A DNA stretch of 64,000 nt from Roseomonas sp. OT10. GTDB lineage: Bacteria; Pseudomonadota; Alphaproteobacteria; Acetobacterales; Acetobacteraceae. Within the stretch, counting starts at the first letter, position 1; each line of letters begins with the position of its first letter. The notes beneath the pieces were generated by a model. The model saw nothing but the letters and a program-made list of their open reading frames with translations. It ran no database searches and was not told the DNA's origin. Positions 13,383 through 62,217 of this stretch are shown here, in pieces. A program made the position numbers and the translations under genes. The stretch spans positions 4,050,001 through 4,114,000 of the forward strand of contig NZ_CP087719.1 of NCBI RefSeq assembly GCF_020991085.1, written 5' to 3'.

Positions 13383-13809
13383 CCGGTATCATACCGACGG
13401 CGGGATGACCTGACCGGTCGTGCTGTGGTGTTCCAGCGCCGGCACCGGGAGGGGACGCCGTCCCCTCCCAGACCCTCCCCTGCCGGGGCCACAAGCGGGC
13501 CCCGGTCCCCGCTGGGAGTTTGGTGCTTCATGGCTGCCGTCAGCCTGCGGGCTGATCCCTGACGGAACGCGGACAGGCGGGACTCTGAAGAAAGCTTTCA
13601 GAGGGCGTCAGCGAGGGCTGCGGCCGTACCCGCCGAGGAGCCAAGCTCCTCGGCGCCGTGACCCCGTCACCACCACCGCGCGGCAGCGCTGATCGGGTCC
13701 AGGGCCCGCAGGGTCCTGGCGGAGTGGGGGGTACGGGGGCGAGGCAGCGCCTTGCCCCCGGGGAACGGGCGCCACGCCGGCACGGATCAACGGCACCGCA
13801 CCGTCCGTA
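13383..13809 (+). repeat. Interspersed structured repeat, copy 1 (forward)
   Basis: Near-complete copy of the roughly 400-bp family described in the findings. From left: outer palindrome CGGTATcATACCG, terminal CGGCGGGATG, palindrome GGAGGGGACG/CGTCCCCTCC (near 13451), hairpin CCGGGGCC/GGGCCCCGG, hairpin TCAGCC/GGCTGA, hairpin GCCGAGGAGC/GCTCCTCGGC, hairpin CCAGG...CCTGG and GGGGGCGAGGC/GCCTTGCCCCC. The right end abuts the stop codon of the kinase-like gene at 13810; the left end lies just upstream of the methyltransferase start. The only junction with both flanking genes on the minus strand besides copy 6. Confidence 0.9.
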
Positions 13810-14352
13810 TCAGTCCCGGCCACCCTGTTCCAGTCGCGCCAGCACCGCCTCCACCAGAGTGCCGACCGGCATCAGGCTGTCCAGCCGCAGCAGGGGGCAA
13901 TGCAGCCGCGCCAGCCAGGCCTCCTGCGACCGGCGCGAGCGCGTCTCCAGCCCGGCCGTATCGTAGGACGCTGCCCAATCGAGGAAGGACACGCTGCCCT
14001 GGTGCATGTCGCCGCCGGGCCCGATGCGGCGACCGTAGCGCGACGCCTCGCGCGCGCGCAGCCGCCGCATCCGCTCCCCCTGGTCGAGGGCGAGGAAGAC
14101 CACGAAGGTCAGCCGCTCGGTGAGCGAGTCGCCCCAGGAGATCAGCGAGCCGCTCATCACCCAGCCCCGCGAATCGTCCAGCGCCGCGTTCATCCGCGCC
14201 AGCCGCTCCGGCACCGGCCGCCGCGTGGTGTAGGGCGGGTCGGTCGGCACCCAGTAGAAATCATCCGTGTCGTGCCAGGGCAGGCCCAGCCGCGCCGCCA
14301 GCGCCTCCCCCAGCGTGGAGGTGCCGCTGCCGGAGGCGCCGATGACGTGCAT
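13810..14352 (-). CDS. P-loop kinase-like protein (adenylate kinase-related, atypical Walker A)
   Basis: 180-residue P-loop protein starting MHVIGASGSGTSTLGEALA. The loop has the layout GxxGSGTST, so the usual Walker A lysine is a threonine, as seen in a group of uncharacterised small-molecule kinase-like proteins. Later features: HDTDDFYW, an arginine-rich lid-like region (MRRLRAREASRYGRRIGPGG) and a C-terminal LRLDS strand. Its start lies 29 bp after the acyl-CoA synthetase stop; an in-frame GTG at 14376 is an alternative. The stop coincides with the end of repeat copy 1. Function unknown; nucleotide or sugar kinase activity is a guess. Confidence 0.65.
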   Translation of the reverse strand: MHVIGASGSGTSTLGEALAARLGLPWHDTDDFYWVPTDPPYTTRRPVPERLARMNAALDDSRGWVMSGSLISWGDSLTERLTFVVFLALDQGERMRRLRAREASRYGRRIGPGGDMHQGSVSFLDWAASYDTAGLETRSRRSQEAWLARLHCPLLRLDSLMPVGTLVEAVLARLEQGGRD

Positions 14353-14381
14353 CCGCAGGGGCGGGCGGGCCGCCACGGCGG

Positions 14382-16109
14382 TCAGGTCAGCTCGCTCAGC
14401 GTGGCGGCGTAGCGCTCGATCACGGCGCGGCGGCGGACCTTCATGGTGGGGGTCAGCAGCCCCTCCTCCAGGGTGAAGGCCGGGACTGCCTTCCAGCGCC
14501 GGACCCGCTCCACGTTGGACAGCTTCGCGTTCACCCGCTCCAGCGCCTTCGCCACCCCCTGCGCCGGGTCGGCGCCCTCGGCCGGGACCAGCAGGGCGAC
14601 GATGGCGGGCGCCCCCTCCCCGGCCACCACCGCCTGGGCGATCTCCGGCTCGGCCATCAGCAGGCCCTCGATCTTGGCCGGGCTGACCATGTCGCCGCCC
14701 AGCGTCTTGAGGAAGTCCTTCTTGCGGTCGCGGATGACGATGCGGCCCTCCTCGATCGTCGCCACGTCGCCCGTGTGCAGCCAGGGCGGCGAATCCGGCG
14801 GGTCGCCCGGCAGATGGGCCAGGGCGGCGGCCGTGGCCACCGGGTCGTTCCAGTAGCCGTCCATCACCAGGTCGCCGCGGATCAGCAGTTCCCCGTCCCC
14901 GGCGATATGGGCTTCCACCCCCGGCAGCGGGTGGCCGACGGTGCGGCGGTGGTTGTCCCAGGGCAGGTTGACGCTGACCACCGGCCCCGCCTCGGTCTGG
15001 CCGTAGCCCTGGAGCACCGGCACGCCCAGCGCCAGGAAGAAGCCCGACAGGTCCGGGTCCAGCCGCGCCCCGCCGGAGACCAGCGCCACCAGCCGGCTGC
15101 CGAAGCGGTCGCGCACCTTGGCCCGCACCAGCCGGTCCAGCACGGTATCCTCCACCCGCTCCAGCAGGTTCAGGGGAGGCCCGTCCAGCTTGCGCAGGCC
15201 CAGCGCCACGGCCCGTTCGAACAGCCGCCGCCGCCAGGGCTTCTCCTTCTCCAGCCCGGCCAGGATGCGGCCGCGCAGCACCTCGAAGAGCCGTGGCACG
15301 GCGGTGACGATGGTGGGGGAGACGTCCTGCAGCTCGGCGGCCAGCCGGTCGGCGCCGCGGCTGTAGACCACCTCCATGCCCAGGGAGGGGAGCAGGAAGT
15401 TGCCCACCGTGTGCTCGTAGGCATGGGAGAGCGGCAGGAAGGAGAGGTAGGGCGTGCCGTTGAGGTGCAGCCGCGACACCACCTCCGCCAGGCCGCGCTG
15501 GTTGGCCAGCATCGCCCGGTGCGGCAGCATCACCCCCTTGGGCGTGCCGCCGGTGCCGGAGGTGTAGACCAGGCAGGCCAGCCGCCCGGCCGGGATCTGC
15601 TCCGCCTCGGCCCGCAGCATGTCCAGGTCGCCGGGCCCGGCGGCCAGGTCGGACCAGGGCACGGCGCCTTCCGGCAGCTCCCCCTTCTCCGCGTCCATCA
15701 CCGCCAGCAGGTCCAGCCCGCCGGCGTCCGCGGCGCCCTGCGCCACCTGCTTCGCCAGCCGGGGCGAGGAGACGAGCGCCGCCCGCGCCCCGCAGTCGCG
15801 CAGGATATGGGCGTGGTCGGCGGTGGTGTTGGTGGTGTAGGTCGGCACCGTCACCCCGCCGATGGCCATGATGGCCGTGTCGGCGACGGGGAATTCCGGC
15901 CGGCTCTCGCTGACCAGCAGCACCCGGTCCCCCGGCATGACCCCCCGCGCCCGCAGCCCGGCGGCCAGGGCGGCGACGTCCCGGGCGAAGCCGATCCAGC
16001 TGACCTGGCGCCACGCCCCGCCCGACCAGTGCCGCAGCATCGGCGCCTCGCCGCGCTGCACGGCGAGTTCCAGCATCATCCCCGGCAGGCTGGTCCAGTG
16101 TCCCGGCAT
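14382..16109 (-). CDS. fadD: AMP-dependent long-chain fatty-acid--CoA ligase
   Basis: 575-residue adenylate-forming enzyme of the long-chain acyl-CoA synthetase group, which activates a fatty acid with ATP and CoA. AMP-binding P-loop YTSGTGGTPKGVML near residue 183, LPLSHAYEHT, the A5-type segment LQGYGQTEAGPVVSVN near 345, then WLHTGDVATIEEGRIVIRDRKKDFLKTLGG near 440, which carries the conserved Asp and the hinge, and a C-terminal domain with a weakly conserved end (PTMKVRRRAVIERY). The layout with an early long insert between A3 and A5 is that of the FAA1/FACS branch rather than the short acetyl-CoA synthetase branch. Natural chain length unknown. Confidence 0.85.
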   Translation of the reverse strand: MPGHWTSLPGMMLELAVQRGEAPMLRHWSGGAWRQVSWIGFARDVAALAAGLRARGVMPGDRVLLVSESRPEFPVADTAIMAIGGVTVPTYTTNTTADHAHILRDCGARAALVSSPRLAKQVAQGAADAGGLDLLAVMDAEKGELPEGAVPWSDLAAGPGDLDMLRAEAEQIPAGRLACLVYTSGTGGTPKGVMLPHRAMLANQRGLAEVVSRLHLNGTPYLSFLPLSHAYEHTVGNFLLPSLGMEVVYSRGADRLAAELQDVSPTIVTAVPRLFEVLRGRILAGLEKEKPWRRRLFERAVALGLRKLDGPPLNLLERVEDTVLDRLVRAKVRDRFGSRLVALVSGGARLDPDLSGFFLALGVPVLQGYGQTEAGPVVSVNLPWDNHRRTVGHPLPGVEAHIAGDGELLIRGDLVMDGYWNDPVATAAALAHLPGDPPDSPPWLHTGDVATIEEGRIVIRDRKKDFLKTLGGDMVSPAKIEGLLMAEPEIAQAVVAGEGAPAIVALLVPAEGADPAQGVAKALERVNAKLSNVERVRRWKAVPAFTLEEGLLTPTMKVRRRAVIERYAATLSELT

Positions 16110-16141
16110 TCCGTCATCCCTGTCACGTGTCCGCCCCGGCC

Positions 16142-16169
16142 TTGGTCCCGACCGCCCTGCTCATATATC
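16142..16169 (+). promoter_or_regulatory. Candidate sigma-70-type promoter for pepF
   Basis: TTGGTC at 16142-16147 and TATATC at 16164-16169 with 16 bases between, about 40 bases before the pepF ATG. The AT-rich TATATC hexamer stands out in this GC-rich intergenic DNA. Seen in sequence; activity not shown. Confidence 0.45.
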
Positions 16170-16209
16170 GGTGGGGCGTCCGTCTGTCCTGTAAGGTGAC
16201 CCCGTCTCC

Positions 16210-20331: not shown

Positions 20332-20437
20332 TCCCGGATGTCCGGGCGCAAGGCCGGGGACGCCCTCCCCCCTTCCGCACCCCGGGCCCCTGCGGGAGTC
20401 TGGCACTCGCGACAAGGGTCGGACGACGGACTGAAGC

Positions 20438-20840
20438 GAACGACGCGATGCCCTGGTCCGTGCCGGCGCGGGGGGGGGGGCGCCCGTGGCCCGGGGGCAA
20501 GGCTCTGCCTCGCCCCCGTACCCCCACTCCGCCAGGACCCTGCGGGCCCTGGACCCGATCAGCGCTGCCGCGGGATAGCCTGCGACGGGGTCGATGCGCC
20601 GAGGAGCCATGCTCCTCGGCAGGTACGGCCTCTGTTCTCGCTGACGCCTTTGAAGCTTTTTCGGAGTCCCGCCTGTCCGAGCTCCGTCAGGGTTCAGCCC
20701 GGAGGCTGACGTTCACCGCGAAGAGCCAACTCCCAGCGGGGACCGGGGCCCGCTTGTGGCCCCGGCAGGGGAGGGTCTGGGAGGGGACGGCGTCCCCTCC
20801 CAGTCCGACGCCGGAACACCATAGCACAACGGGCCAGGCC
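20438..20840 (-). repeat. Interspersed structured repeat, copy 2 (reverse)
   Basis: Same element as copy 1 in opposite orientation, between the convergent deacetylase and D-aminopeptidase genes. Contains all conserved hairpins, with the GGAGGGGACG/CGTCCCCTCC palindrome at the right end near 20786. Near its left end a run of 11 G residues (20470-20480) interrupts the conserved stretch, a likely expansion or sequencing-sensitive spot. The terminal CGGCGGGATG-type sequences are diverged (left end reads ACGACGCGATG). Confidence 0.88.
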
Positions 20841-20860
20841 GGCGAATCGCGCGGTGCCTG

Positions 20861-28255: not shown

Positions 28256-28665
28256 CCATCCGGACGGCGGGATGCCTTGGTCCGTGCCGGCGTGGTAGCC
28301 GTGGCCCGGGGGCAAGGCGCTGCCTCGCCCCCGTACCCCCACTCCGCCAGGACCCTGCGGGCCCTGGACCCGATGGGTGCTGCCGCAGGACAGCCTGACA
28401 CGGGGTCACAGTGCCGAGGAGCCATGCTCCTCGGCGGGCACGGCCTCCATGCTCGCGGACGCCTTCTGAAGTTTTTCCAGAGTCCCACCTGTCCGCGCGC
28501 CGTCAGGGTTCAGCCCGCAGGCTGACGGCGGCCAAGAAGCACCAGACTCCCAGCGGGGTCCGGGGCCCGCTTGTGGCCCCGGCAGGGGAGGGTCTGGGAG
28601 GGGACGGCGTCCCCTCCCGGTCCGCCGCCGGAACGCCACAGCACAACGGGTCAGATCGTTCAGCC
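28256..28665 (-). repeat. Interspersed structured repeat, copy 3 (reverse)
   Basis: Full copy with a clean left terminus (CCGGACGGCGGGATG at about 28259) and all internal hairpins; the GGAGGGGACG/CGTCCCCTCC palindrome is near 28598. Lies between the convergent lipoprotein and DHA2 exporter genes. The right end is diverged beyond the CACAGCAC block. About 90 bp of unremarkable DNA separates it from the exporter stop. Confidence 0.9.
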
Positions 28666-28753
28666 GCCGGTGTCAGGTCCTGCCGGACAGGGGGCCGCAG
28701 GGGCAGGGCGGGTCCATCCCCGTCGCGCGTGGCCGGCCGCCGGACGTGTCCGG

Positions 28754-39092: not shown

Positions 39093-39519
39093 CCGGCCGA
39101 TCATGCGGCCAGCGGGATGACCTGACCGGTCGTGCTGTGGTGTTCGGGCGGCGGACCGGGAGGGGACGCCGTCCCCTCCCAAACCCTCCCCTGCCGGGGC
39201 CACAAGCGGGCCCCGGACCCCGCTGAGAGTCTGGTACTTCCGGTAGTGTCAGCCTCCGGGCTCAACCCTGACGGAACGCGGACAGGCGGGACTCCAGAAT
39301 AGCTTTGAAGGCGTCAGAGCGGGCTGAGGCCGTGCTCGCCGAGGAGCCATGCTCCTCGGCGCCTCGACCCCTTATCAGGCTGTCCCGCGGCAGCGCTGAT
39401 CGGGTCCAGGGCCCGCAGGGTCCTGGCGGAGTGGGGGTACCGGGGGCGAGGCAGAGCCTTGCCCCCGGGCCACGGGCGCCCCCCGCGCCGGCACGGATCG
39501 GGGCATCCCGCCGCCCGGA
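39093..39519 (+). repeat. Interspersed structured repeat, copy 4 (forward)
   Basis: Near-complete copy between the convergent amidohydrolase and ftsK genes. Left terminus ATCATGCGGCCAGCGGGATG (from about 39099), right terminus GCATCCCGCCGCCCGGATCA, whose last three bases are the ftsK stop codon read on the minus strand. All internal hairpins are present; the GGAGGGGACG/CGTCCCCTCC palindrome is near 39161. Confidence 0.9.
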
Positions 39520-42078
39520 TCAGTCGTCCGAGCGCCGGGCCAGGACCTCGCGCTTGCCGACATGGTTGGCCGGGCCGACGATGCCGTCCTTCTCCATCTG
39601 CTCGATCAGCTTGGCGGCGCGGTTGTAGCCGATGTTCAGGTGGCGCTGGACGAAGGAGGTGCTGGCCTTGCCCTCGCGCGACACCAGGTCCACCGCTTGG
39701 TCGTAGAGGCCCTGCTCGCCCCCGCTGCTGCTGCTGCCGCTGGCGGGGCTGCCCTCCTCCTCGTCGGGAACCTCGGTGACCTCCTCGACATAGGCGGGCT
39801 CGCCCTGCTCGCGCAGGTACTCGACGATCGCCTCCACCTCCGCGTCGGAGACGAAGGGGCCGTGGACGCGGTTCATGCGGCCGACGCCGGCCATGAACAG
39901 CATGTCGCCCTGGCCGAGGAGCTGCTCGGCGCCCATCTCGCCCAGGATGGTGCGGCTGTCGATCTTGGACGAGACCTGGAAGCTGATGCGCGCCGGGAAG
40001 TTCGCCTTGATGACGCCGGTGATGACGTCCACCGAGGGGCGCTGCGTCGCCATGATGACGTGGATGCCGGCGGCGCGCGCCATCTGGGCCAGGCGCTGGA
40101 CGGAGGCCTCGATCTCCTTGCCTGCCACCACCATCAGGTCCGCCATCTCGTCGATGACGACGACGATCATGGGCAGCGGCTCGAGCGAGAGCGGCAGGTC
40201 CTCGAAGACCGGCTTGCCGGTGTCGGGGTCGTAGCCGGTCTGCACGCGCCGGGTCAGCGCCTCGCCGCGGTCGCGCGCGTCGCGCACCTTCTTGTTGTAG
40301 CCGGCGATGTTGCGCACGCCGAGCTGGGAGAGGGCGCGGTAGCGGCGCTCCATCTCGCGGACCGTCCACTTCAGCGCGCCGATCGCCTTGGGCGCCTCCG
40401 TCACCACAGGGGCGAGCAGGTGCGGGATGCGGTCGTAGACGGACAGCTCCAGCATCTTCGGGTCGATCATGATGAAGCGGCACTCGTCCGGCCCGTGCCG
40501 GTAGAGCAGCGACAGGATCATGGTGTTGATCGCGACCGACTTGCCCGAACCCGTCGTGCCCGCGACCAGCAGGTGCGGCATGGTGGCGAGGTCGGCGATC
40601 ACCGGCGCGCCGCCGATGTCCTTGCCCAGCGCGAGGCTCAGCCGGCCCGGCGTGGAATCCCAGGCCTCGGAGGTGAAGAGCTCGGAGAGGTACACCGTCT
40701 CCCGCTTGGTGTTCGGCATCTCGATGCCGATGACGTTGCGGCCCGGCACGGTGGCGATGCGCACCGCGGTCACCGACATCGACCGCGCGATGTCGTCCGC
40801 GAGGCCGATGACCCGCGCCGACTTGGTGCCCGGCGCCGGCTCCAGCTCGTAGAGGGTGACGACCGGGCCGGGGCGGATCTCGCCGATCCGGCCGCGCACG
40901 CCGTAATCCTCCAGCACGCTCTCCAGCAGCCGGGCGTTGTTCTGCAGCGCCTCCTCGGTCGGGCCGGTGGCCTTCCGCGCGGGGGGCGCGTTCAGCAGCT
41001 CCAGCGGCGGCAGGTGGAAGCCGCGCGGCGGTTCCGGCTCGGCCTGGCGCACCGCCGGAGCCGGCCGGACGGGCGGCGGTGGCGGGGCGACGACACGGCT
41101 GGGGCGGGGCGGCGGGGCCAGCTCCGGCGCCTCCGCCTCCTCCTCGCCCGGCGACTCGGCCGCCGGCTCCGGCGGGCGGGTGCGGAGGCGGGGCGGCCGG
41201 GCCGCGCGCGGCGCGGCGCGGACCTCCCCGGGCAGGGCCGCGGCGGCCTCGGCATTGTCCAGCAGGGTGCGCAACTGCACGGAGGGCTCGCGCCGCCGGC
41301 TGAGCAGCCCGCCCAGCGCCCCGCCCAGGGCCCGGAAGGGCCGCAGCAGCCAGAGGGGCCGCCGCTCCGCCCGCCGGCGCTCGGCGCGGGCGGAGATGCC
41401 CGCCCCCAGCGAGGAGCCGAGCGAGGCGCCCACGGCCACGCCCTGCTTCGCCGCGGCGATGCCGGTGCGGCGCCAGACCACCAGCGGGATGCCCAGCGCC
41501 AGCAGCGCCAGCAGCAGGCCCAGCACCAGGGTGGCGATGTCGCCCGCCAAGCCGCCGAAGGGCCCGAACCAGCCGGTGGCGATGCCGTCGATGCCGCCGC
41601 GCACGATCGGCCCGATGGCGCCGCCCGGCGGCAGGTAGCTGAGCCCCGGCAGGCCCAGCTGCACCGCCGCGGCGGCCAGCAGCGGCAGCGCGGCGAGCAG
41701 GGCGGCGACACGGCCGGCGAAGGGCTTCAGCCCCTGGTGCATCCCCAGCCGCAGCGCCCAGCAGAGCAGGCAGGCGGCGGGCAGCCAGCCGGCCCAGCCG
41801 AAGCCCTGCAGCAGCACGTCCGACGCCATCGCGCCGAAGGGGCCGGCCAGGTTGGTCGGCGCGCGGCTGGTGGCGGTGGACAGGGACGGATCGGCCGGGT
41901 TGTGGCTGTAGAGGGCGACGACCAGGGCCAGCCCGACCAGCCCCAGCACCATGCCCAGGGACTCGCCGCCGCGCCGCCGCATCGTCGCCCGCACCGCCGG
42001 GGAGGCGAAGCGCGCCAGGGCGGCGGCCCAGCGGCCCGGGGGGTTGGCGGATCGGTCGGCAAGGGAGCGCGGCGGCAT
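39520..42078 (-). CDS. ftsK: DNA translocase FtsK
   Basis: 852-residue DNA pump of the division septum, which clears chromosome ends into daughter cells and activates XerCD recombination. N-terminal domain with four or so membrane helices (about residues 40-190), an arginine/proline-rich linker to about 360, RecA-like motor with Walker A GTTGSGKS near 508, MIDPKMLELSVY, Walker B-type IVVVIDEMADLMMV region and ATQRPSVDVITG, and the C-terminal gamma winged helix (YDQAVDLVSREGKASTSFVQRHLNIGYNRAA) that reads KOPS sites. Full length for the family. The stop codon coincides with the end of repeat copy 4. Confidence 0.95.
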   Translation of the reverse strand: MPPRSLADRSANPPGRWAAALARFASPAVRATMRRRGGESLGMVLGLVGLALVVALYSHNPADPSLSTATSRAPTNLAGPFGAMASDVLLQGFGWAGWLPAACLLCWALRLGMHQGLKPFAGRVAALLAALPLLAAAAVQLGLPGLSYLPPGGAIGPIVRGGIDGIATGWFGPFGGLAGDIATLVLGLLLALLALGIPLVVWRRTGIAAAKQGVAVGASLGSSLGAGISARAERRRAERRPLWLLRPFRALGGALGGLLSRRREPSVQLRTLLDNAEAAAALPGEVRAAPRAARPPRLRTRPPEPAAESPGEEEAEAPELAPPPRPSRVVAPPPPPVRPAPAVRQAEPEPPRGFHLPPLELLNAPPARKATGPTEEALQNNARLLESVLEDYGVRGRIGEIRPGPVVTLYELEPAPGTKSARVIGLADDIARSMSVTAVRIATVPGRNVIGIEMPNTKRETVYLSELFTSEAWDSTPGRLSLALGKDIGGAPVIADLATMPHLLVAGTTGSGKSVAINTMILSLLYRHGPDECRFIMIDPKMLELSVYDRIPHLLAPVVTEAPKAIGALKWTVREMERRYRALSQLGVRNIAGYNKKVRDARDRGEALTRRVQTGYDPDTGKPVFEDLPLSLEPLPMIVVVIDEMADLMVVAGKEIEASVQRLAQMARAAGIHVIMATQRPSVDVITGVIKANFPARISFQVSSKIDSRTILGEMGAEQLLGQGDMLFMAGVGRMNRVHGPFVSDAEVEAIVEYLREQGEPAYVEEVTEVPDEEEGSPASGSSSSGGEQGLYDQAVDLVSREGKASTSFVQRHLNIGYNRAAKLIEQMEKDGIVGPANHVGKREVLARRSDD

Positions 42079-46137: not shown

Positions 46138-46505
46138 CGGCGGCAGGTGCGCCCGTGGCCCGGGGGCAAGGCTCTGCCTCGCCCCCGATACCCCCACTCC
46201 GCCAGGACCCTGCGGGCCCTGGACCCATTTGGCGCTGCCGCGGGACAGCCGGACACGGGGTCACAGCGCCGAGGAGCCATGCTCCTCGGCGGGTACGGCC
46301 GCAGCATTCGCTGACGCCTTCTGGATTTCTTCTGGAGTCCCGCCTGTCCGCGCGCCGTCAGGGTTCAGTCCGCAGGCTGACGGCAGCCGCGAAGAGCCAA
46401 CTCCCAGCGGGGTCCGGGGCCCGCTTGTGGCCCCGGCAGGGGAGGGTCTGGGAGGGGACGGCGTCCCCTCCCGGTCCGACGCCCGAACACGACGGCGCGA
46501 CAGCC
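46138..46505 (-). repeat. Interspersed structured repeat, copy 5 (reverse)
   Basis: Copy between the convergent enolase-superfamily gene and hpnN, lacking the left terminal sequence (it begins at the GCGCCCGTGGCCCGGGGGC block) and with a worn right end. Internal hairpins intact, palindrome GGAGGGGACG/CGTCCCCTCC near 46455. The hpnN stop lies about 10 bp beyond the right end. Confidence 0.88.
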
Positions 46506-46516
46506 CGCGATCCGCG

Positions 46517-50377: not shown

Positions 50378-50383
50378 ATCGCG

Positions 50384-51586
<1,203 letters not shown>

Positions 51587-52196
51587 CGCGCAGAAGGCCC
51601 GCTCCGCCTCCCACCCCGTCCGCAGCAGGGCGGGCAACTGCCCCGGCCGTGCCGCCAGCGCGCGCAGCACGGCCGGCAGGTCCATTCCCCCATCCGGCCG
51701 CATTCCCACCCGCGCGGCCGGCGGCAGGTCGCGATCCGCCGCGTCCGACACCACCCGCGCGGCCGCGAAGGGCACCCCGTGCCGCCGCGCCACCCGCGCC
51801 GCGACGTGTGATTCCATGTCCACGGCGATGGCCCCCGTCGCCGCATGCCGCGCGGCCTTCGCGGCCGCATCCGCCACCATCGTGTCGCTGCCCAGCAGCA
51901 GCCCGGTCCGCGCCCCGGGCAGCGCCGCCGCCAGCCGGTCGCGCCACGCCGCGTCGGCCGGGATCGCCTCGGCCCCGTCCAGCACCGCCTCCGCCACCAC
52001 CCAGTCGCCCGGTGCCAGCCCCGGCGCCAGCGCCCCCGCGATGCCCAGGCTGATCACGCCCCGCGCGATCCGCACGGCATCCCCCAGCACCGCCTCCAGC
52101 CGGGCGGCATCGCCCCCGCCGGCAACGGTCTCGATGCCCGGGCCGGACAGGATGCGGGCCTCGCGGCGCAGGCCGGTGACGACGAGGAGCCTCACG

Positions 52197-52605
52197 GCGC
52201 GCCCGTGGCCCGGGGCAAGGCTCCGGACCCCGCTGATACGGGCGGTGCGATGCCCTGATCCGGGCCGGCGGGGCACCCGTGGCCCGGGGGCAAGGCTCTG
52301 CCTCGCCCCCGATACCCCCACTCCGCCAGGACCCTGCGGGCCCTGGACCCGATCAGTGCTGCCGCGGGACAGTCTGCGACGGGGTCACAGCGCCGAGGAG
52401 CTTGGCTCCTCGGCGGGTACGGCCGCCGCACTCGCGGACGCCTTTGAAGCTTTTTCAGGGTCCCGCCTGTCCGCGTACCGTCAGGGTTCAGCCCGCAGGC
52501 TGACGGCAGCCACGCAGCACCAGGCTCCCAGCGGGGACCGGGGCCCACTTGTGGCCCCGACAGGGGAGGGTCTGGGAGGGGCAGGGAGGAGCCGTCCCCC
52601 CTTGA
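52197..52605 (-). repeat. Interspersed structured repeat, copy 6 (reverse, with partial duplication)
   Basis: Degenerate copy between hpnG (start at 52195) and shc (stop at 52626), both on the minus strand. The terminal GCGCCCGTGGCCCGGGGCAAGG block occurs twice, at about 52198-52220 and 52266-52292, so the end has been duplicated or two insertions are nested. The palindrome at the other end is broken (GGAGGGGC...GAGCCGTCCCCCC). Central hairpins are kept; GCCGAGGAGC/GCTCCTCGGC is at about 52392-52414. The element forms the leader of hpnG. Confidence 0.85.
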
Positions 52606-52625
52606 CCGGGGAGCGACGCTGCCTC

Positions 52626-54593
52626 TCACATCCCGTGGGCCGGCCGGGCGGCGTTGCCACGGCGGAGGTTGCGGTAGCGCGCGAGGGCCCAGAGCGGGAA
52701 GAACTTCGGATAGCCGTGGTAGCGGAGGTAGAAGACGCGCGGGAAGCCGCCGCCCGTATAGGCTTCCTGGCTCCAGAGCCCGTCCGCGTCCTGATGCTGT
52801 TGCAGCCAGGCGACGCCGCGCCGCACGGCGGGCGAATCCACCTCCCCCGCCGCCATCAGCCCCAGCAGCGCCCAGGCCGTCTGCGAGGCGGTGGAGGGGT
52901 AGGGCCGGTAGCCGGCGTAGTCGAGGCCATAGCTGGCGCAGTCCTCCCCCCAGCCGCCATCCGCGTTCTGGATGCCGGCGAGCCAGGCGGCCGCGCGGGC
53001 GATGGCCGCGTGCTGCGGTTCCAGCCCGGCCGCGTTGAGCGCGCAGAGGGCGGACCAGGTGCCGTAGATGTAGTTCACCCCCCAGCGGCCGAACCAGCTG
53101 CCATCCGCTTCCTGCTCGCGCAGCAGATAGGCCAGCGCGTCCCGCATCCGCGGGCTGTCCGGCTTCTCCCCGAGCTGCGCCATCATGCTGATGACGCGGG
53201 CGCTGACATCGGCCGTGGGCGGGTCCAGCAGCGCGCCGTGGTCGGCGAAGGGGATGTTGTTCAGGTAGTGGTTGTCGTTGTCGGCGTCGAAGGCGCCGAA
53301 GCCGCCGTCACGGCTTTGCAGCCCCATGGTCCATTCGGCGCCGCGGGCGATGGATTCGTCGTAGCCGTTCGCGTCCAGCCCGTGACGCGCGCGGTCCATC
53401 GCCATCACCACCACGGCGGTGTCGTCGAGATCGGGATAGTGCGCGTTGCGGTACTGGAAGGCCCAGCCGCCGGGGCGCAGCCCGGGGCGCTGCACGGCCC
53501 AGTCGCCCACCGCCTCCAGCTCCTGCAGGGGCTTGAGCCAGGCGAGGGCGCGCAGGGCGGCGGCCTCGGCGGGGGCGCCGCCGACCTCCATCATCGCATG
53601 GGCGGCCAGCGCCGTATCCCAGACGGGCGAGACGCAGGGCTGGCAATAGGCTTCGTCCTCGCCGATCACCAGCAGCCTCTCGACGGCGCGGCGGGCGGTG
53701 GCGCGGTCCGGATGCTCGGGCGGATAGCCCAGCACGTCGTACATCATCACCGCATTGGCCATGGCGGGATAGATCGCGCCGAGCCCGTCCTCGCCGTTCA
53801 GCCGCTCCGTCACGAACTCCACGCAGCGGCGGATGGCGCGCCCGCGCAGCCGTTCCGGCCAGAGCGGCTCGGCCGCCTTCAGCGCCACGTCGCAACCGTT
53901 GAAGAACAGCGCCCAGCCCCTGTGGTGATGCTGGCGCCCGCGCCGCAGCGGGAAGCGGCTGGACCGGAACAGCTCGGGGATGCGCACGCCGCGCGGGTTG
54001 CGGGCGCGGGCGCGCCTCGCCTGCAGCACCAGCAGCGGCACCAGCACGGTGCGCGCCCAGTAGGACATCTTGGAGAGGTGGACGGGGAACCAGCGCGGCA
54101 GCAGTACCATCTCCACCGGGATGGTGGGGATGCGGGTCCAGGGCAGCTCCCCGTACAGGGCGAGGAGGATGCGGGTGAAGACATTGGCCCGCGCCGCGCC
54201 ACCATGGGCCAGGATCGCCGCCCGGGCGCGCGCCATGTGGGGCGCCGCCGGGTCGTCGCCGATCATCTTCAGGCAGAAATAGGCCTTCACCGACGCGCTG
54301 AGGTCGAAGGCCCCGCCATGGAACAGCGGCCAGCCGCCATGCCCGCCCTGGATGCGGCGGAGGTAGTTGCCGATCCGCCGCTCCAGCTCCAGGTCGTCCG
54401 GCTCGCCCAGGTGGTGGCGCAGCAGCACGTACTCGGCCGGGATGGTGGCGTCCGCCTCCAGCTCGAAGACCCAGTGCCCGTCCGGCCGCTGCACGTCGAG
54501 CAGGGCGCGGGCGGCGCGGCCGAGACTCGCCTCGAGCCCGTCCAGCCCGGCCTCCGCGTTCCTGGCGGGGACGGCGACCATCCCATCATTCAT
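52626..54593 (-). CDS. shc: Squalene-hopene cyclase
   Basis: 655-residue membrane-associated cyclase that folds squalene into hopene/hopanol, the committed step of hopanoid synthesis. The protonating DxDD motif is in HYPDLDDTAVVVMAM near residue 388. Several QW repeats are visible (QSRDGGFGAFD, QEADGSWFGRWGVNY, QNADGGWGED, QHQDADGLW), plus the YCQPCVSPVWDTALAAHAM segment and the family end YRYHGYPKFFP-type block (LRYHGYPKFFPLWALARY). The ATG at 54593 gives the normal length; an in-frame ATG at 54632 is possible. No squalene-synthesis genes (hpnCDE) are next to it, so they lie elsewhere. Confidence 0.94.
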   Translation of the reverse strand: MNDGMVAVPARNAEAGLDGLEASLGRAARALLDVQRPDGHWVFELEADATIPAEYVLLRHHLGEPDDLELERRIGNYLRRIQGGHGGWPLFHGGAFDLSASVKAYFCLKMIGDDPAAPHMARARAAILAHGGAARANVFTRILLALYGELPWTRIPTIPVEMVLLPRWFPVHLSKMSYWARTVLVPLLVLQARRARARNPRGVRIPELFRSSRFPLRRGRQHHHRGWALFFNGCDVALKAAEPLWPERLRGRAIRRCVEFVTERLNGEDGLGAIYPAMANAVMMYDVLGYPPEHPDRATARRAVERLLVIGEDEAYCQPCVSPVWDTALAAHAMMEVGGAPAEAAALRALAWLKPLQELEAVGDWAVQRPGLRPGGWAFQYRNAHYPDLDDTAVVVMAMDRARHGLDANGYDESIARGAEWTMGLQSRDGGFGAFDADNDNHYLNNIPFADHGALLDPPTADVSARVISMMAQLGEKPDSPRMRDALAYLLREQEADGSWFGRWGVNYIYGTWSALCALNAAGLEPQHAAIARAAAWLAGIQNADGGWGEDCASYGLDYAGYRPYPSTASQTAWALLGLMAAGEVDSPAVRRGVAWLQQHQDADGLWSQEAYTGGGFPRVFYLRYHGYPKFFPLWALARYRNLRRGNAARPAHGM

Positions 54594-55359: not shown

Positions 55360-55435
55360 ACCGGCCCTGCCGGATCGCGTGCGCCGCCGCATCCCGGCCG
55401 GCCGCCCGAGGGCCCGCCCGCCGGAGGTCAGCCTG

Positions 55436-55862
55436 CCGGTGGTCATACCGGCGGCGGGATGATCTGACCCGTTGTGCTGTCGTGTTCCGGCGGCGGACCG
55501 GGAGGGGACGCCGTCCCCTCCCAGACCCTCCCCTGCCGGGGCCACAAGCGGGCCCCGGTCCCCGCTGGGAGTTGGTTCTGTGCGGTAGGTATCAGTCTGC
55601 AGGCTGAACCCTGACGGAGCGCGGACAGGCGGGACTCTGAATAAAGCTTCAGAGCGCGTCAGCGAGTGCGGAGGCCGGTCCCGCCGAGGAGCATGGCTCC
55701 TCGGCGCCTCGACCCCGTATCAGGCTGTCCCGCGGCAGCGCCAAATGGGTCCAGGGCCCGCAGGGTCCTGGCGGAGTGGGGGTACGGGGGCGAGGCAGAG
55801 CCTTGCCCCCGGGCCACGGGCGCCCCCGTGCCGACACGGATCACGGCATCCCGCCGTCCGGA
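55436..55862 (+). repeat. Interspersed structured repeat, copy 7 (forward)
   Basis: One of the best-kept copies, between the convergent rimI and CorC-type genes. Left end GTCATACCGGCGGCGGGATGA (from about 55442; counted as 20 bases from the T), right end GGCATCCCGCCGTCCGGATC with the final TCA being the stop codon of the minus-strand gene. All hairpins are intact: palindrome near 55498, CCGGGGCC/GGGCCCCGG, GCCGAGGAGC/GCTCCTCGGC near 55683, CCAGG/CCTGG, GGGGGCGAGGC/GCCTTGCCCCC. Confidence 0.9.
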
Positions 55863-57203
55863 TCAGCCACTCCGGCCGGCCGGCAGGACTCCTGCCTTGC
55901 GATGCAGCCGGGGCGCGGACGACGCTGTGACCTCGCTGGCCAGGACCTTGTCGATGCGGTTGCCGTCCAGGTCCACCACCTCGAAGCGCCAGCCGCCCAC
56001 CTCGACGTGCTCGCCCACGGCGGGCAGGCGGCCGAAGGCGGCCAGGACATGGCCGGCCACCGTCTGGTAGTCGCGGTTCTCCGGCAGCCGCACGCCGAGG
56101 TGCTCGGCCATCTCGTCCGCGGGCAGCCAGCCGGCGAGCAGCCAGGATCCGTCGTCGCGCTGCACCGCGCCTTCCTCCTCCTCCGGCTCCATGTCGGCGC
56201 GGAAGACGCCGGCGATGGCCTCCAGCAGGTCGGCAGGGACCACGACCCCCTCGAAATGGCCGTACTCGTCATGGACCAGCGCCATCGGCACCTCCGCCTC
56301 GCGCAGCACGTCCAGCGCATCCAGCGCGTCGGCGGTGTCGGGGATGACCGGGGCGGGCCGGACATGGGCGCGCACGTCCAGCCTCTCCCCGGCCAGGGCC
56401 CGGGCCAGCATCTCGCGGGTCTGCACCACCCCGATCATCTCGCCGCCCGGGCCGCTGGAGACGGGGAGGCGGGAATGCGGGGTGGTGGTCAGCACCTCGC
56501 GCACCTTCGCCTCGTCGGCATCGGCGTCCAGCCAGTCGATGTCGGTGCGCGGCGTCATCACCCCCCGGACCGGCCGGTCGCCCAGCCGCATCACCCCGCT
56601 GATCAGGCGGCGCTCCGCCGGCTCGATGGTGCCGGCGCCCTCGGCCTCGGCGACGAGGGAGCGGATCTCCTCGTCCGTCACCTTGCTCTCCTCCTCGGGG
56701 CCCACGCCCAGCAGGCGGAAGACCAGGCCGGTCGAGCTGTCCAGCAGGGAGACCAGCGGCGCCGCGATGCGGGAGATGACGGACATGATCGGCGCCACCG
56801 TGCAGGCCAGGCCCTCCGGGTTGCGCAGGGCGAAGCGCTTCGGGACCAGCTCGCCGATGACGATGGAGAGGTAGGTGACCAGCGCCACCACCAGCCCGAA
56901 GCCCAGCGGCTGCGCCACCGCGGCGGAGAGCCCCTGCGCCTGCAGCCAGGCGGCGAGGCGCCCGCCCAGCGCCTCGCCGGAATAGGCGCCGGCCAGAATG
57001 CCGACCAGGGTGATGCCGATCTGCACGGTGGAGAGGAAGCGCCCCGGATCGCGCGCCAGCGCCAGGGCGGAGGCCGCGCCGCGCCGCCCCTCCGCCTCCA
57101 TGGCCTGCAGCCGCCGCGGCCGGGACGAGACCACGGCGAGCTCGGACAGCGCGAAGACGCCGTTGAGCATGACCAGGAGAAGGACGATGGCGAGTTCCAG
57201 CAT
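55863..57203 (-). CDS. HlyC/CorC-family (CNNM-CBS) membrane protein
   Basis: 446 residues: CNNM (DUF21) membrane domain at about 1-190 (MLNGVFALSELAVVSSRPRRLQAM, then FLSTVQIGITLVGILAGAYSGEALG and SIVIGELVPKRFALRNPEGLA), a pair of CBS domains at about 205-330 (RPVRGVMTPRTDIDWLDADADEAKV, ARALAGERLDVRAHVRPAPVIPDTADALDALDVL) and a C-terminal CorC/HlyC domain (GSWLLAGWLPADEMAEHLGVRL). Family proteins are linked to magnesium and cobalt homeostasis; the hemolysin label is historical. The stop codon coincides with the end of repeat copy 7. Confidence 0.88.
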   Translation of the reverse strand: MLELAIVLLLVMLNGVFALSELAVVSSRPRRLQAMEAEGRRGAASALALARDPGRFLSTVQIGITLVGILAGAYSGEALGGRLAAWLQAQGLSAAVAQPLGFGLVVALVTYLSIVIGELVPKRFALRNPEGLACTVAPIMSVISRIAAPLVSLLDSSTGLVFRLLGVGPEEESKVTDEEIRSLVAEAEGAGTIEPAERRLISGVMRLGDRPVRGVMTPRTDIDWLDADADEAKVREVLTTTPHSRLPVSSGPGGEMIGVVQTREMLARALAGERLDVRAHVRPAPVIPDTADALDALDVLREAEVPMALVHDEYGHFEGVVVPADLLEAIAGVFRADMEPEEEEGAVQRDDGSWLLAGWLPADEMAEHLGVRLPENRDYQTVAGHVLAAFGRLPAVGEHVEVGGWRFEVVDLDGNRIDKVLASEVTASSAPRLHRKAGVLPAGRSG

Positions 57204-57262
57204 GCGGCGAGGCTAGGGCAGATCGCGCCGTCCCGGTACCGGGGCGGCGAGCCGCCCCTGCC

Positions 57263-58267: not shown

Positions 58268-58375
58268 ACCCGCCTCCCGGCCTCGCCCGTCGCTCCGTTC
58301 TGTCTGGTGAACGGAAATCACGAAGCCGACAACCGCAAGCTTACCCGAATCGGGCGGAGGTGGGCAGGAAAGCGG

Positions 58376-59656
58376 TCAGCGCGTCCCCGCCGCCACGGAT
58401 CCGGGCGGCAGCAGCCCCCGCCCCTCCAGCAGCCCGGCGAGCGTCCCGCCGCCGAATCCCATGGCCCGGCGGGCGAAGAACCGCTTGACCGGCGGCAGCC
58501 GGTCCACCGCCGCGATGCCCAGGCGGCGGGCCAGGCGCAAGGGCGGCAGGTCGTTGCCGAAGAGCCGCTCCAGCGCATGGGTGGCGCCGAGCATCAGCAG
58601 CGCGTCCGGCCGCCGCGCCGCCTGGTAGCGGGCGAGCGCCACGGGGCCGCCGGGGTCCTGGCCGGCATGGAGCGCGGCGATGGTGGCCTCCGCCAGGGCG
58701 GCGGCATCGCGAAAGCCCAGGTTCAGCCCCTGGCCGGCAATCGGATGGATGCCATGCGCGGCGTCCCCGACCAGGGCCAGCCGGGTGTCCACGAAGCGCG
58801 CGGCCTGCATCGCCGCCAGCGGGTAGGACCAGCGCCGGCCGATCACCCGCACCGCCCCCAGATGGCCGCCCAGGCGCCGCGCCACCTCCCGCTCCAGGGC
58901 GTCGTCGTCCAGGGCCAGGAAGTGCCGGGCGAGGGGCGTGCGCTCGGACCAGACGAGGGAGGAGAGGTGCGGATGCTCCGGCGTGGGCGCCAGCGGGAGC
59001 TGGGCAAAGGGGCCGTTCGGCAGGAAGTGCTCCAGCGCCACGCCGCCATGCGGCCGCTCGTGCGCGATGGCCAGGACCAGGCCGGTCTGGCCGTAGTCCA
59101 GCCGCGCCGCGCCGATCCCCGCGGCCCGGCGGAGGGGGCTGTCCCGCCCCTCCGCCCCCACCACCAGGCGCGCCGCGATTCGCGTGCCATCCGGCAGGCG
59201 GACCAGCGCCCCGGCCGCGTCGCGCGTCACCGCCGGGCTGGCGGGCGCGAAGACCCGTGGCCCGGACTGCGCATGGAGGACCCGGTTCAGCGCGACCCGC
59301 AGCGCCCGCGCCTCGACCATCCACCCGAAGGCGCCTTCCCCGGCCTCCCGGGCATCGAAGTGCAGCCGCAGGCGCGAGGGCGGCTCGCCCGGGCGGCCAT
59401 CCGTCACCCGGATCTCCCGGATCGGGCCCGGCGCCGACGGCAGCGCCGCCCAGACCCCCGCGGCCTCCAGCAGGTTGCGGCTGCTGCGGGCGATGGCATA
59501 GGCGCGGCCGTCGAAGGCGGGCAGCTCCATCGGCGGCAGCGGCGCGGCATCGACCACCGCCGTCGCCACCCCGGCGGCGGCCAGCGTCGCGGCGAGCGTC
59601 GCGCCCACCGGCCCCGCGCCGATCACGCAGACCTCAACCGCGCTGTCCTGCCGCAT
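58376..59656 (-). CDS. ubiH: FAD-dependent ubiquinone hydroxylase, UbiH/COQ6 family
   Basis: 426-residue flavoprotein monooxygenase. N-terminal FAD dinucleotide motif VCVIGAGPVGATLAATLA near residue 9, the middle DG-type motif LVVGAEGRDSPLRRAAG near 163 and the C-terminal FAD-phosphate motif LALVGDAAHGIHPIAGQGLNLGFRDAAALAE near 290, the exact signature of UbiH/UbiF/COQ6 enzymes that hydroxylate the ubiquinone ring. Which ring position cannot be told. An AGGAAGGGGG site upstream supports the ATG at 59656. Diverges from glnK across 166 bp. Confidence 0.85.
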   Translation of the reverse strand: MRQDSAVEVCVIGAGPVGATLAATLAAAGVATAVVDAAPLPPMELPAFDGRAYAIARSSRNLLEAAGVWAALPSAPGPIREIRVTDGRPGEPPSRLRLHFDAREAGEGAFGWMVEARALRVALNRVLHAQSGPRVFAPASPAVTRDAAGALVRLPDGTRIAARLVVGAEGRDSPLRRAAGIGAARLDYGQTGLVLAIAHERPHGGVALEHFLPNGPFAQLPLAPTPEHPHLSSLVWSERTPLARHFLALDDDALEREVARRLGGHLGAVRVIGRRWSYPLAAMQAARFVDTRLALVGDAAHGIHPIAGQGLNLGFRDAAALAEATIAALHAGQDPGGPVALARYQAARRPDALLMLGATHALERLFGNDLPPLRLARRLGIAAVDRLPPVKRFFARRAMGFGGGTLAGLLEGRGLLPPGSVAAGTR

Positions 59657-59684
59657 GGCCGTGCTTGCCCCCTTCCTGCCCCGC

Positions 59685-59701
59685 TGCCCAGCATTTGAGC
59701 A
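59685..59701 (+). promoter_or_regulatory. Possible NtrC-binding half-match upstream of glnK
   Basis: TGC-N11-GCA (TGCCCAGCATTTGAGCA), the outer spacing of NtrC enhancer sites (TGCACCA-N3-TGGTGCA), about 85 bases before the -24/-12 promoter, a usual enhancer distance. Only the outer triplets match, so this is weak. Confidence 0.3.
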
Positions 59702-59762
59702 GTCTGCCTCGCAGGCCAAGGGGCCGGGCCCGGCTTATTCCGTGCGGGCGCGCCGGTTGTAA

Positions 59763-60161
<399 letters not shown>

Positions 60162-60184
60162 GGGAAGCCGCGAGGCAGACGGAC

Positions 60185-61576
60185 ATGAAGGACAAGACAA
60201 CGATGCGAATTCCAGCCCGTGGCCTGGCCGCGGCGCTCCCGGCCCTGTTGCTGGCGCTTCCCGCCCTGGCGCAGGTGACCCCGGGAACCGAGGCCGCGGC
60301 CGAGGCCGCGCCGGCCGCCGCGGCCACGGTCGACACGGGCGACACGGCCTGGATGCTGACCAGCACCGCGCTGGTGCTGATGATGACCATCCCGGGCCTG
60401 GCGCTGTTCTACGCCGGCATGGTGCGCAAGAAGAACGTGCTGGCGACGCTGATGCAGTCCTTCGCGATCGCCGCGATCGCGACGATCGTCTGGATGGTGG
60501 CCGGCTACAGCCTCGCCTTCGGCGAGGGCAACGCCTATGTCGGCGACCTGTCCAAGCTGCTGCTGAACGGCGTGGCGGAGAACTGGAACAGCCCCTTCAG
60601 CCTGGGCACGGGCGACGGCGCGGTGGCCTTCACCATCCCCGAGACCGTCTTCGTGATGTTCCAGATGACCTTCGCGATCATCACGCCGGCGCTGATCACC
60701 GGCGCCTATGCCGAGCGCATGAAGTTCTCGGCGATGGTGCTCTTCACCATCCTCTGGCTGCTGGTCATCTACGCGCCGATCGCGCACTGGGTGTGGCACC
60801 CGAACGGCTGGATCTTCGCCCTCGGCGCGCTGGACTTCGCCGGCGGCACGGTGGTGCACATCAACGCGGGTGTGGCCGGCCTGGTCTGCGCCGTGGTGCT
60901 GGGCAAGCGCGTGGGCCTGGGGCACGACAACCTCTCCCCCTTCAACCTGGCCTTCGCCGTCATCGGCGCCTCCATGCTGTGGGTGGGCTGGTTCGGCTTC
61001 AACGCGGGCTCGGCCGGCGGCGCCGGCGGGCGCGCGGGCATGGCCATGCTGGTGACCCAGGTGGCCGCGGCCGCCGCGACCCTGGCCTGGGTCTTCGCGG
61101 AGTGGATCCTCAAGGGCAAGCCCTCGGTGCTGGGCGCCATCTCCGGCGCCGTCGCGGGCCTCGTTGCCATCACCCCGGCGGCCGGCTTCGTCCTGCCGAT
61201 CCCGGCCCTGGTCATCGGCGTGATCGCCGGCCTGACCGGCTTCTGGGGCGCCACCGCGCTGAAGCACTGGTGCGGCTACGACGACAGCCTGGACGCCTTC
61301 GGCGTGCACGGCCTGTGCGGCATCGTCGGCGCGCTGCTGACGGGCGTCTTCTCCTACGGCCCGCTCTCGGCCACCACCGCCGCGCCGGACGGCACGGTCG
61401 GCTCGGTCGCGCAGCTGATCACCCAGTTCTACGCGGTGGCGGCCACCTTCATCTACACCGCGATCGCGAGCTGGATCCTGCTCAAGATCGTGGATGTGAT
61501 CGTCGGCCTGCGCGTCAGCGAGGAGGAGGAGCGCGAGGGCCTCGACGTCGTCCTGCACGGCGAGCGCCTGGGCTGA
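60185..61576 (+). CDS. amtB: Ammonium transporter AmtB
   Basis: 463-residue inner-membrane ammonia channel. Signal peptide (IPARGLAAALPALLLALPALAQ), an alanine-rich linker, then 11 helices: WMLTSTALVLMMTIPGLALFYAGMVRKKNVL (helix 1), the first pore histidine in LDFAGGTVVHINAGVAGLV, phenylalanine gate MWVGWFGFNAGSA, and the second pore histidine in DAFGVHGLCGIVGALLTG. The C-terminal tail EEEEREGLDVVLHGERLG is the GlnK-responsive tail with the conserved ERxGLD-like stretch. An alternative ATG at 60203 has AAGGA 10 bases before it and would give a neater signal peptide. Followed by a strong terminator. Confidence 0.95.
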   Translation: MKDKTTMRIPARGLAAALPALLLALPALAQVTPGTEAAAEAAPAAAATVDTGDTAWMLTSTALVLMMTIPGLALFYAGMVRKKNVLATLMQSFAIAAIATIVWMVAGYSLAFGEGNAYVGDLSKLLLNGVAENWNSPFSLGTGDGAVAFTIPETVFVMFQMTFAIITPALITGAYAERMKFSAMVLFTILWLLVIYAPIAHWVWHPNGWIFALGALDFAGGTVVHINAGVAGLVCAVVLGKRVGLGHDNLSPFNLAFAVIGASMLWVGWFGFNAGSAGGAGGRAGMAMLVTQVAAAAATLAWVFAEWILKGKPSVLGAISGAVAGLVAITPAAGFVLPIPALVIGVIAGLTGFWGATALKHWCGYDDSLDAFGVHGLCGIVGALLTGVFSYGPLSATTAAPDGTVGSVAQLITQFYAVAATFIYTAIASWILLKIVDVIVGLRVSEEEEREGLDVVLHGERLG

Positions 61577-61591
61577 CCGCCCACCCCTGAG

Positions 61592-61652
61592 CCGCCCGCC
61601 ATCTGCGGGCGGAACCGGAAGGGCACCGGCGGGGGAACCTGCCGGTGCCCTT
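61592..61652 (+). terminator. Tandem-hairpin intrinsic terminator of glnK-amtB
   Basis: First stem CCGCCCGC/GCGGGCGG (61592-61599 with 61605-61612). Second, 12-bp perfect stem AAGGGCACCGGC/GCCGGTGCCCTT (61619-61630 with 61641-61652, loop of 10), followed by the pyrimidine run CTCCTTTCC. It begins 16 bp after the amtB stop. Confidence 0.8.
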
Positions 61653-61799
61653 CTCCTTTCCGGGCCAGGCGCCGGTGGCGCCGGCCAGCGGTTGCAGATG
61701 GCGCGTACCTCGCCCGCAAAACGGGCATCACCTATCGTTTCGAACAAGATTCGGGCTGCCGGGGCCGGCACCCGATGCGAGGAGCGCCGAAACGATGCT
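61653..61799. other. Spacer between the amtB terminator and repeat copy 8
   Basis: Unassigned DNA. It has a short hairpin GCCCG/CGGGC (61712-61716 with 61722-61726) and a locally AT-richer stretch (CACCTATCGTTTCGAACAAG, about 61730). No open frame of interest. Confidence 0.3.
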
Positions 61800-62217
61800 T
61801 CCCGATCCGGCGGCGGACCGGGAGGGAACGCCGGCCTGCGGCATCGACTCCGTGCGTCGATCCCCGTCCCGGACCCTCCCCCGCCGGGGCCACAAGCGAG
61901 CCCCGGTCCCCGCTGGGAGTTGGTTCTGTGCGGTGGGTGTCAGCCTCCGGGCTGAACCCTGACAGCGCGCGGACAGGCGGGACTCTGTAAAAGCTCAGCA
62001 GACGTCAGCGAATGCTGCGGCCATACCCGCCGAGGAGCATGGCTCCTCGGCGCCTCGACCCCGTCGCAGTCATCCGCGCGGCAGCACTGATCGGGTCCAG
62101 GGCCCGCAGGGTCCTGGCGGAGTGGGGGTATCGGGGGCGAGGCAGAGCCTTGCCCCCGGGCCACGAGCGCCGAGGCCACTCATCGACCCCGGGCCGCCAA
62201 TCCGGAGTGCGGCGGGA
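61800..62217 (+). repeat. Interspersed structured repeat, copy 8 (forward, diverged ends)
   Basis: Most diverged copy, between the convergent amtB and ScfR-type genes. Its first palindrome is interrupted by about 25 bp of unrelated sequence (near 61830-61855, containing CATCGACTCCGTGCGTCGAT), and the left terminal repeat is not recognisable. Central and right hairpins are intact (CCGGGGCC/GAGCCCCGG, GCCGAGGAGC/GCTCCTCGGC near 62029, CCAGG/CCTGG, GGGGGCGAGGC/GCCTTGCCCCC). The right end, ...GCGGGATCA, again runs into the stop codon of the minus-strand gene. Confidence 0.85.

Follow-up and report, generated by a model that had tools for sequence, protein, structure and literature searches.

A new MITE family with a conserved hairpin core at the 3' ends of genes in Roseomonas sp. 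OT10

Eight copies of a non-coding interspersed repeat lie in a 64,000-nucleotide stretch of the genome of Roseomonas sp. OT10 (contig NZ_CP087719.1, positions 4,050,001 to 4,114,000; called the window below, with coordinates counted from its first letter). Our data show that this repeat is a miniature inverted-repeat transposable element (MITE) of a new family: it has terminal inverted repeats (TIRs) and a 3-bp target-site duplication (TSD), carries no transposase and occurs as dispersed intergenic copies. Its mobile origin is well supported. It seems rather likely that we are dealing with an IS5/IS1031-type MITE which is tolerated at gene ends and whose core, as we infer, acts as a bidirectional RNA structure at the 3' ends of transcripts.

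Element ends, target sites and copies

Pairs of TIRs are found together with correlated TNA trinucleotides outside them, so the element is delimited as TACCG...CGGTA with a 3-bp TNA duplication. The TIR reads TACSGACGGCGGGATG; in copy c55 its arms occupy 55446..55469 (left, + strand, family consensus TACCGACGGCGGGATGACCTGACC) and 55839..55862 (right, + strand, family consensus, reversed, TACGGACGGCGGGATGCCCTGATC), and the 24-bp consensus arms, built from 67 left and 64 right ends, differ at 3 positions. At a loose threshold TIR pairs were placed in 70 of 83 strong copies, some of these placements being doubtful (for example those of c20 and c61); the inter-TIR length is 320–447 bp, and 402–421 bp in 59 of the 70. 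Identical 3-bp TSDs flank 38 of these 70 copies (TGA/TGA 19, TCA/TCA 18, TAA/TAA 1), compared with a mean of 19.3 and a maximum of 32 in 20,000 permutations, and no trinucleotide other than TGA, TCA and TAA is among them, which fits TNA. A stricter TIR threshold, together with called genes on both sides, left 55 copies, 35 of them with concordant TSDs. The target context in these 35 is C-TNA-G, with C preceding in 24 and G following in 22. An IS630-like duplication of TA was rejected, as a TA within the TIR cannot account for the correlated TNA outside it.

An earlier note, made from the window sequence alone, had described eight copies, four per orientation, with their hairpins in a fixed order, and all of this was recovered: c13, c39, c55 and c61 are on the + strand, c20, c28, c46 and c52 on the – strand. 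Its proposal of a MITE or a structured RNA/DNA module was right in both parts, given the TIRs, the TSD, the dispersal, the lack of a transposase and the covariation across species; it had overlooked the TSD and its coincidence with stop codons, the placement 3' of genes, and the existence of diverged copies in sister species. The copy ends it gave had to be corrected, since complete copies run TACCG...CGGTA (13392-13809, 39104-39519, 55446-55862) with TCA/TCA flanks. TIRs are complete at both ends in c13 (13392..13809, +, codirectional gap, TSD TCA at 13389-13391 and 13810-13812), c28 (28259..28672, –, convergent gap, TSD TGA/TGG in copy orientation), c39 (39104..39519, +, convergent gap, TCA/TCA) and c55 (55446..55862, +, convergent gap, TCA/TCA). 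The right TSD of c13 is the stop codon of the gene at 13810-14376 (–), that of c39 the stop codon of ftsK (39520-42078, –), and that of c55 the stop codon of a CNNM/CorC-like gene (55863-57203, –). One or both TIRs are degenerate in the other copies: c20 (–, convergent gap 20331(+)/20861(–)) has degenerate TIRs, c46 (–, convergent gap) and c61 (+, convergent gap) combine an intact core with degeneration at both ends, and c52 (52237..52625, –) has a degenerate left TIR. For c20, c46 and c61 we give the ends of the earlier note (20438..20840, 46138..46505 and 61800..62217). Six window copies thus lie in convergent gaps and two in codirectional ones. A tandem array, a CRISPR or a coding repeat was ruled out, the window copies being single, dispersed and located between called genes.

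The site of c52 can be compared with its orthologues. This copy lies between shc (stop at 52626) and a phosphorylase-like gene (pnp), which are 430 bp apart in the window. In 16 of 17 named relatives (Roseomonas and genera split off from it, the closest by Shc protein) the same distance is –4 to 36 bp, and in 7 relatives stop and start overlap by 4 bp (...GATGTGA...; three were read directly). In R. populi (L130) the distance is 567 bp, with no match to the repeat profile. An empty orthologous site is therefore seen at the level of genes and at one locus, shc-pnp. The c52 junction itself is not clean, as a short fragment resembling the 3' end of the repeat lies alongside (52196..52233, –, read by eye); the extent given earlier for c52 was amended in this sense, the copy ending at 52237 and 52197-52236 being the separate 3'-end-like fragment. 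The region around it (50399-54593) holds hopanoid-type genes (radical SAM/DUF3463, phosphorylase-like, squalene-hopene cyclase).

In the source genome (5.69 Mb, three contigs, C1, C2 and C3) the exact core GGACAGGYGGGACYC occurs 144 times, 72 per strand, which is beyond chance, as its reversed control occurs 0 times. A profile hidden Markov model built from the eight window copies found 37 strong copies in 864 kb (the window and tiles), and 27 of these contain the exact core; on this basis we extrapolate to ~200 copies genome-wide, ~80 kb or 1.5% of the chromosome. The density of one copy per 8 kb proposed earlier holds in the window but not beyond it: 464 kb including the window has 31 strong copies (1 per 15 kb), and the 400 kb at 1.6–2.0 Mb has 6 (1 per 67 kb). 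Of the 83 strong copies, 44 are on the – strand and 39 on the + strand, an almost even use of the two. All places of the two commonest core variants (57 and 70) are on C1, with none on C2 or C3, which together comprise about 360 kb; C2, by contrast, holds 15 of the 26 DUF4096 (IS5-type) matches. Along C1 the spread is uneven, with few listed cores at ~1.1–2.9 Mb and none in 0–214 kb; the copy-poor regions are possibly younger or terminus-side. At L247 (C1, about 1.034 Mb) a MITE copy (699-968 and 3119-3215) is split within its core by an IS5-type unit which seems to carry a further insertion; the insertion sequence (IS) is also present at L248, L249 and L253. Inverted weak TIR matches at L247 were set aside, since the left one belongs to the interrupted MITE copy and the IS lacks these ends.

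Placement at gene ends and stop codons

Genes were called with our own codon-usage caller rather than a published one. Relative to these genes, 62 of the 83 strong copies lie in convergent gaps, where one overlaps a called gene, 21 in codirectional gaps and none in divergent gaps; the 8 weak copies are divided between convergent gaps (3), codirectional gaps (4) and a stretch edge (1). Counted by gaps in the 464 kb, the element is present in 21 of the 50 convergent gaps and in 15 of the 295 codirectional ones, but in none of the 50 divergent ones. Within codirectional gaps there is little sign of orientation, with 13 copies along the direction of the genes and 12 opposite to it.

In 38 of 55 copies, among them 28 of the 35 with concordant TSDs, a TSD coincides exactly with a called stop codon. 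If insertion were uniform over the TNA sites of the rebuilt gap, 28.5 of 55 would be expected (19.5 of the concordant ones), or 27.5 instead of 28.5 when the expected value of one copy, which exceeded one, is capped at one. Simulations reached the observed count in 3 of 20,000 runs (14 of 20,000 for concordant copies). The coincidence arises mostly because the TNA available in GC-rich gaps is often a stop codon.

The hairpin core and its relatives in sister species

Between the TIRs lies a core of hairpins whose positions we give for c55, all on the + strand. It has a left outer hairpin, H1 (GGGAGGGGACG/CGTCCCCTCCC, 55500..55522), and the 5' strand of a long-range closing stem (55526..55543), which pairs with 55764-55782 according to RNAalifold and to the sister-species copies; a local hairpin CCGGGGCC/GGCCCCGG (55536..55558) is an alternative to this long-range pairing. 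Further along are the species-specific block GCGGACAGGCGGGACTC (55621..55637), H5 (CGCCGAGGAGC/GCTCCTCGGCG, 55682..55706), which shows paired differences between species, and H6 (CCAGGGCCC/GGGTCCTGG, 55751..55771), in which paired changes recur in sister-species copies. The 3' strand of the closing stem, GGTCCTGGCGGAGTGGGGG (55764..55782), overlaps H6, so alternative folds are possible. The right outer hairpin H7 (GGGGGCGAGGC/GCCTTGCCCCC) lies at 55785..55811. The consensus fold is near-symmetrical, with RNAalifold energies of –135 kcal/mol for the sense and –132 kcal/mol for the antisense strand. Over 66 full copies the mean identity to the majority base is 97.1% in paired core columns, 87.3% in unpaired ones, and 83% and 81% in the TIR arms.

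That stems are conserved and loops vary had been taken earlier as an argument for selection on pairing, which does not suffice by itself. The H5 loops CAT and ATG (55682-55706 and equivalents) are reverse complements of each other, and it looks as if this hairpin had been flipped in place repeatedly by palindrome-templated inversion. With such apparent flips, loop variation alone is no evidence of selection on pairing. Within the source genome the stems hardly vary, and covariation is therefore nearly absent: a count of double-change cells above one was reached by the small hairpin H8 alone.

The picture changes once other species are added. Three genomes of the same genus (G003, G004 and G012) have copies of the same architecture with ~70% identity to the window's family. 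We aligned the 29 pairs of H5, H6 and H7 over these four species, drawing on a pool of 110 segments, all with the anchor motif and with matches of at least 40 bits. Alignment A2 holds 68 of the 110, picked by hand (42 of 68 sister-species segments and 26 of 42 from the source genome) and leaving out some copies with damaged H5; alignment A3 holds 99, all but 11 short ones. In A2 97.5% of the cells are paired, with 103 double-change cells (shuffled 33.0, slid at most 7) and 12 pairs changed on both sides (shuffled 5.6). A3 gives the same picture with slightly lower pairing: 97.0% of cells paired, 164 double-change cells (shuffled 50.8, slid at most 17) and 15 pairs changed on both sides (shuffled 6.8). 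The covariation looked for since the earlier note is therefore present in excess of both controls, and it shows that the pairing of the core is maintained by some force. Two H5 pairs separate the window's family from the others (G-C 58/A-U 35 and A-U 53/G-C 42), which is probably the result of one or two old changes; at one H6 pair the sister-species copies have changed repeatedly (C-G 81, G-C 13, A-U 4, U-A 1). A consensus fold of 50 sister-species copies was poor (–38 kcal/mol) and was replaced by these segment alignments. Of 50 sister-species copies, 38 could be parsed by pattern, and the closing stem is present in the minimum free energy fold of 37 of these.

TIRs of the sister-species copies are mostly undetected by the profile: 1 of 66 matches reaches back past profile position 40, and 6 extend beyond 425. 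These 66 copies are in convergent (26), codirectional (34) and divergent (2) gaps or at edges (4); the stretches were picked for containing matches, so their densities should not be taken as representative. The three genomes share some orthologous sites: both flanks match in 8 of the 12 pairs with any flank match, at 88–97% flank identity (largely coding) apart from one pair at 72% that is probably false. Compensatory changes are seen between orthologous copies, for example L219:12074 of G003 versus L235:4011 of G012. The exact core GGACAGGYGGGACYC occurs 0 or 1 time per genome in 14 other genomes of the genus (once each in G004 and G012), which is the level of chance, because single matches to the reversed control turn up in four genomes as well. 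When a G004 copy was used as query, with at most 12 candidates scored per genome, 16 of 60 genomes were matched at E ≤ 0.001, including the source genome (G000), G003, G004 and G012; outside these four only short matches were found. In G003 a similar pair of TIRs stands ~370 bp apart around a different interior (L286, about 2337-2710), perhaps a second MITE type sharing the ends. A motif like AGGAATAxAATCAA recurs, by eye, beside copies in L224, L267 and L287.

We did not find the family in existing catalogues. No Rfam family reaches its gathering score in the window (the best sub-threshold match of c55 has 23.2 bits versus 58), and no description of it is among the literature matches listed on MITEs or repeats of Roseomonas and Acetobacteraceae. 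A phage or plasmid origin was dropped, as a 427-bp query, one copy of the repeat, matched no plasmid or phage record in a search outside of which records of the source genome or its near relatives may lie.

Possible function and rival explanations

The reading that we prefer begins with a non-autonomous element of ~415 bp that would be moved in trans by a DDE transposase making 3-bp TNA duplications. IS5-family groups IS1031 and ISL2 make 3-bp TNA target duplications, and it is because of this habit that an IS1031/ISL2-type transposase is the likely enzyme. Where GC content is high, as in this genome, TGA stop codons at gene ends would make up many of the TNA sites open to harmless insertion; an insertion there would duplicate the stop codon and leave the gene whole, so that copies could accumulate between convergent genes. 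With its outer hairpins, closing stem and inner hairpins, the near-symmetrical core would be transcribed from either side and might end or protect transcripts as a bidirectional 3'-end structure, a role that would explain the persistence of the stems while the TIRs decay. Going further, the family may be a mobile dispenser of 3' ends, in which C-TNA-G targeting, in practice often at the stop codon, places a symmetrical RNA structure where transcription units end, and the host keeps it by compensatory evolution as a transcript-end or messenger RNA (mRNA)-stability element for convergent genes, after TIR loss and in several species; we regard this extension as tentative.

Several observations weigh against the preferred reading. 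The preference for stop codons beyond the choice of TNA is modest (38 versus about 28). No T-tract was found: in the 41 copy-bearing gaps the best perfect hairpin, one per gap, never has five T within nine bases after it or five A within nine bases before it. Classical intrinsic termination is therefore not predicted. In the sense strand G-U pairs exceed A-C (101 cells versus 10), but two columns contribute 86 of these cells, and without them the counts are 15 versus 10. The pair counts in our alignments are of sequences and not of events, and the large H5 switch (G-C to A-U) may be a single change. H5 is lost in some sister-species copies (G003 L225, G004 L212, G012 L228:1894). Elements at the eight both-flank sites are 72–90% alike, close to the paralogue and cross-species means of 73–74%, so single copies are not well conserved. 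Palindrome-templated repair could yield compensatory changes without selection, and is the main alternative for the covariation. Finally, we found no autonomous element carrying these TIRs: none of 20 of the 26 DUF4096 loci scanned with the TIR profile ends in them (other transposase families were not searched), the 46 places found by a TIR-only scan at no more than one mismatch were matched by eye to listed cores, and MITE copies occupy each of 12 TIR regions inspected in the source genome, of which 11 lacked a listed core. Parent elements of MITEs are often lost, and TIRs shared with an autonomous IS are not required.

The lack of T-tracts is not peculiar to the gaps with copies. In 371 gaps that lack a copy and measure at least 50 bp, a best hairpin of at least 9 bp with a T/A-rich side was seen 5 times, and stems of at least 9 bp are present in 15 of 43 convergent versus 6 of 111 divergent copy-free gaps, in a comparison made with one mononucleotide shuffle per gap. 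The MITE thus supplies T-less hairpins of a kind to which gene ends there already tend.

The first rival is a purely selfish MITE. Its copies would survive at gene ends since other insertions are harmful, its hairpins would serve transposition or arise by templated mutation, and the host would have no benefit. The absence of copies from divergent gaps fits purifying selection against promoter damage, the flipped-looking loops suggest template-switch events, and TNA choice in GC-rich gaps already accounts for the larger part of the stop-codon coincidence, with 28.5 of 55 expected. A selfish element, however, needs its TIRs, and these are less well conserved than the internal stems; sister-species copies retain the stems though their TIRs are mostly undetected. 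In addition, stable G-T pairs persist (A3 columns 186/208 and 248/260) where templated repair should give G-C or A-T, which speaks mildly against such repair. We consider this explanation possible but doubtful. An independent RNA, trans-acting small RNA or riboswitch-like, that hitch-hikes on the MITE would agree with about 300 nt of several covarying helices and with G-U pairs fixed in the sense strand. It appears improbable, as the chromosome strands are used about equally (44 –/39 +), copies in codirectional gaps are oriented like the genes in 13 cases and opposite to them in 12, the two strands have similar folding energies (–135 and –132 kcal/mol), Rfam has no match and the copies are placed at gene ends. 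Least credible of all is an origin as REP/BIME-type repeats mobilised by a RAYT (Y1 tyrosine) transposase. To our knowledge Y1 single-strand transposition makes no TIR or TSD, and REP/BIME sequences are without both. In the account of PMC3733652, REPs have the same gene-end placement and REP termini can supply the stop codons of neighbours, but CGTC REPs are missing in Acetobacteraceae. Our element is ten times longer than REPs of 20–40 bp and has TIRs and a TSD, the latter already disfavouring this origin; RAYT genes were not searched for.

Compared with known systems, the Roseomonas repeat shares a 3-bp TNA duplication with IS5-family IS1031/ISL2 elements but, unlike them, does not encode a transposase. 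MITEs of the Correia, ERIC and NEMIS type fold into hairpins and are often co-transcribed with neighbouring genes. They are about 100–200 bp long, in contrast to ~415 bp, several helices and a TNA duplication here, and differ from our element in its location at gene 3' ends with a TSD often in the stop codon. Like Correia and ERIC as outlined in PMC10969869, it is non-coding, small, intergenic, hairpin-folding and present in up to hundreds of copies; the same outline gives up to 711 ERIC copies in one genome and 204 bp for Correia. QMITE1 of Coxiella burnetii is similar in its full length of about 400 bp and its many diverged and shortened copies, and the excerpted description states no gene-end or stop-codon rule for it (PMC10969869; compared by description, not by sequence). 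With REP/BIME, as far as the account in PMC3733652 goes, the family shares a location mainly between convergent and unidirectional genes, downstream of open reading frames, as well as G-T pairs in stems, a possible RNA role and, for GTAG REPs, termini that often provide a stop codon; REPs differ as units of 20–40 bp thought to be mobilised by RAYT. Gene-end placement and stop-codon termini alone are thus not new.

In the dense 464 kb the element lies between the genes of 21 of 50 convergent pairs, so many gene ends there carry sequence derived from a transposon. The family bears on how high-GC alphaproteobacteria end transcripts without T-tracts. Its ~200 copies, orthologous sites in sister species and strong covariation make it a natural experiment on a selfish element that is possibly becoming a 3'-end regulatory RNA.

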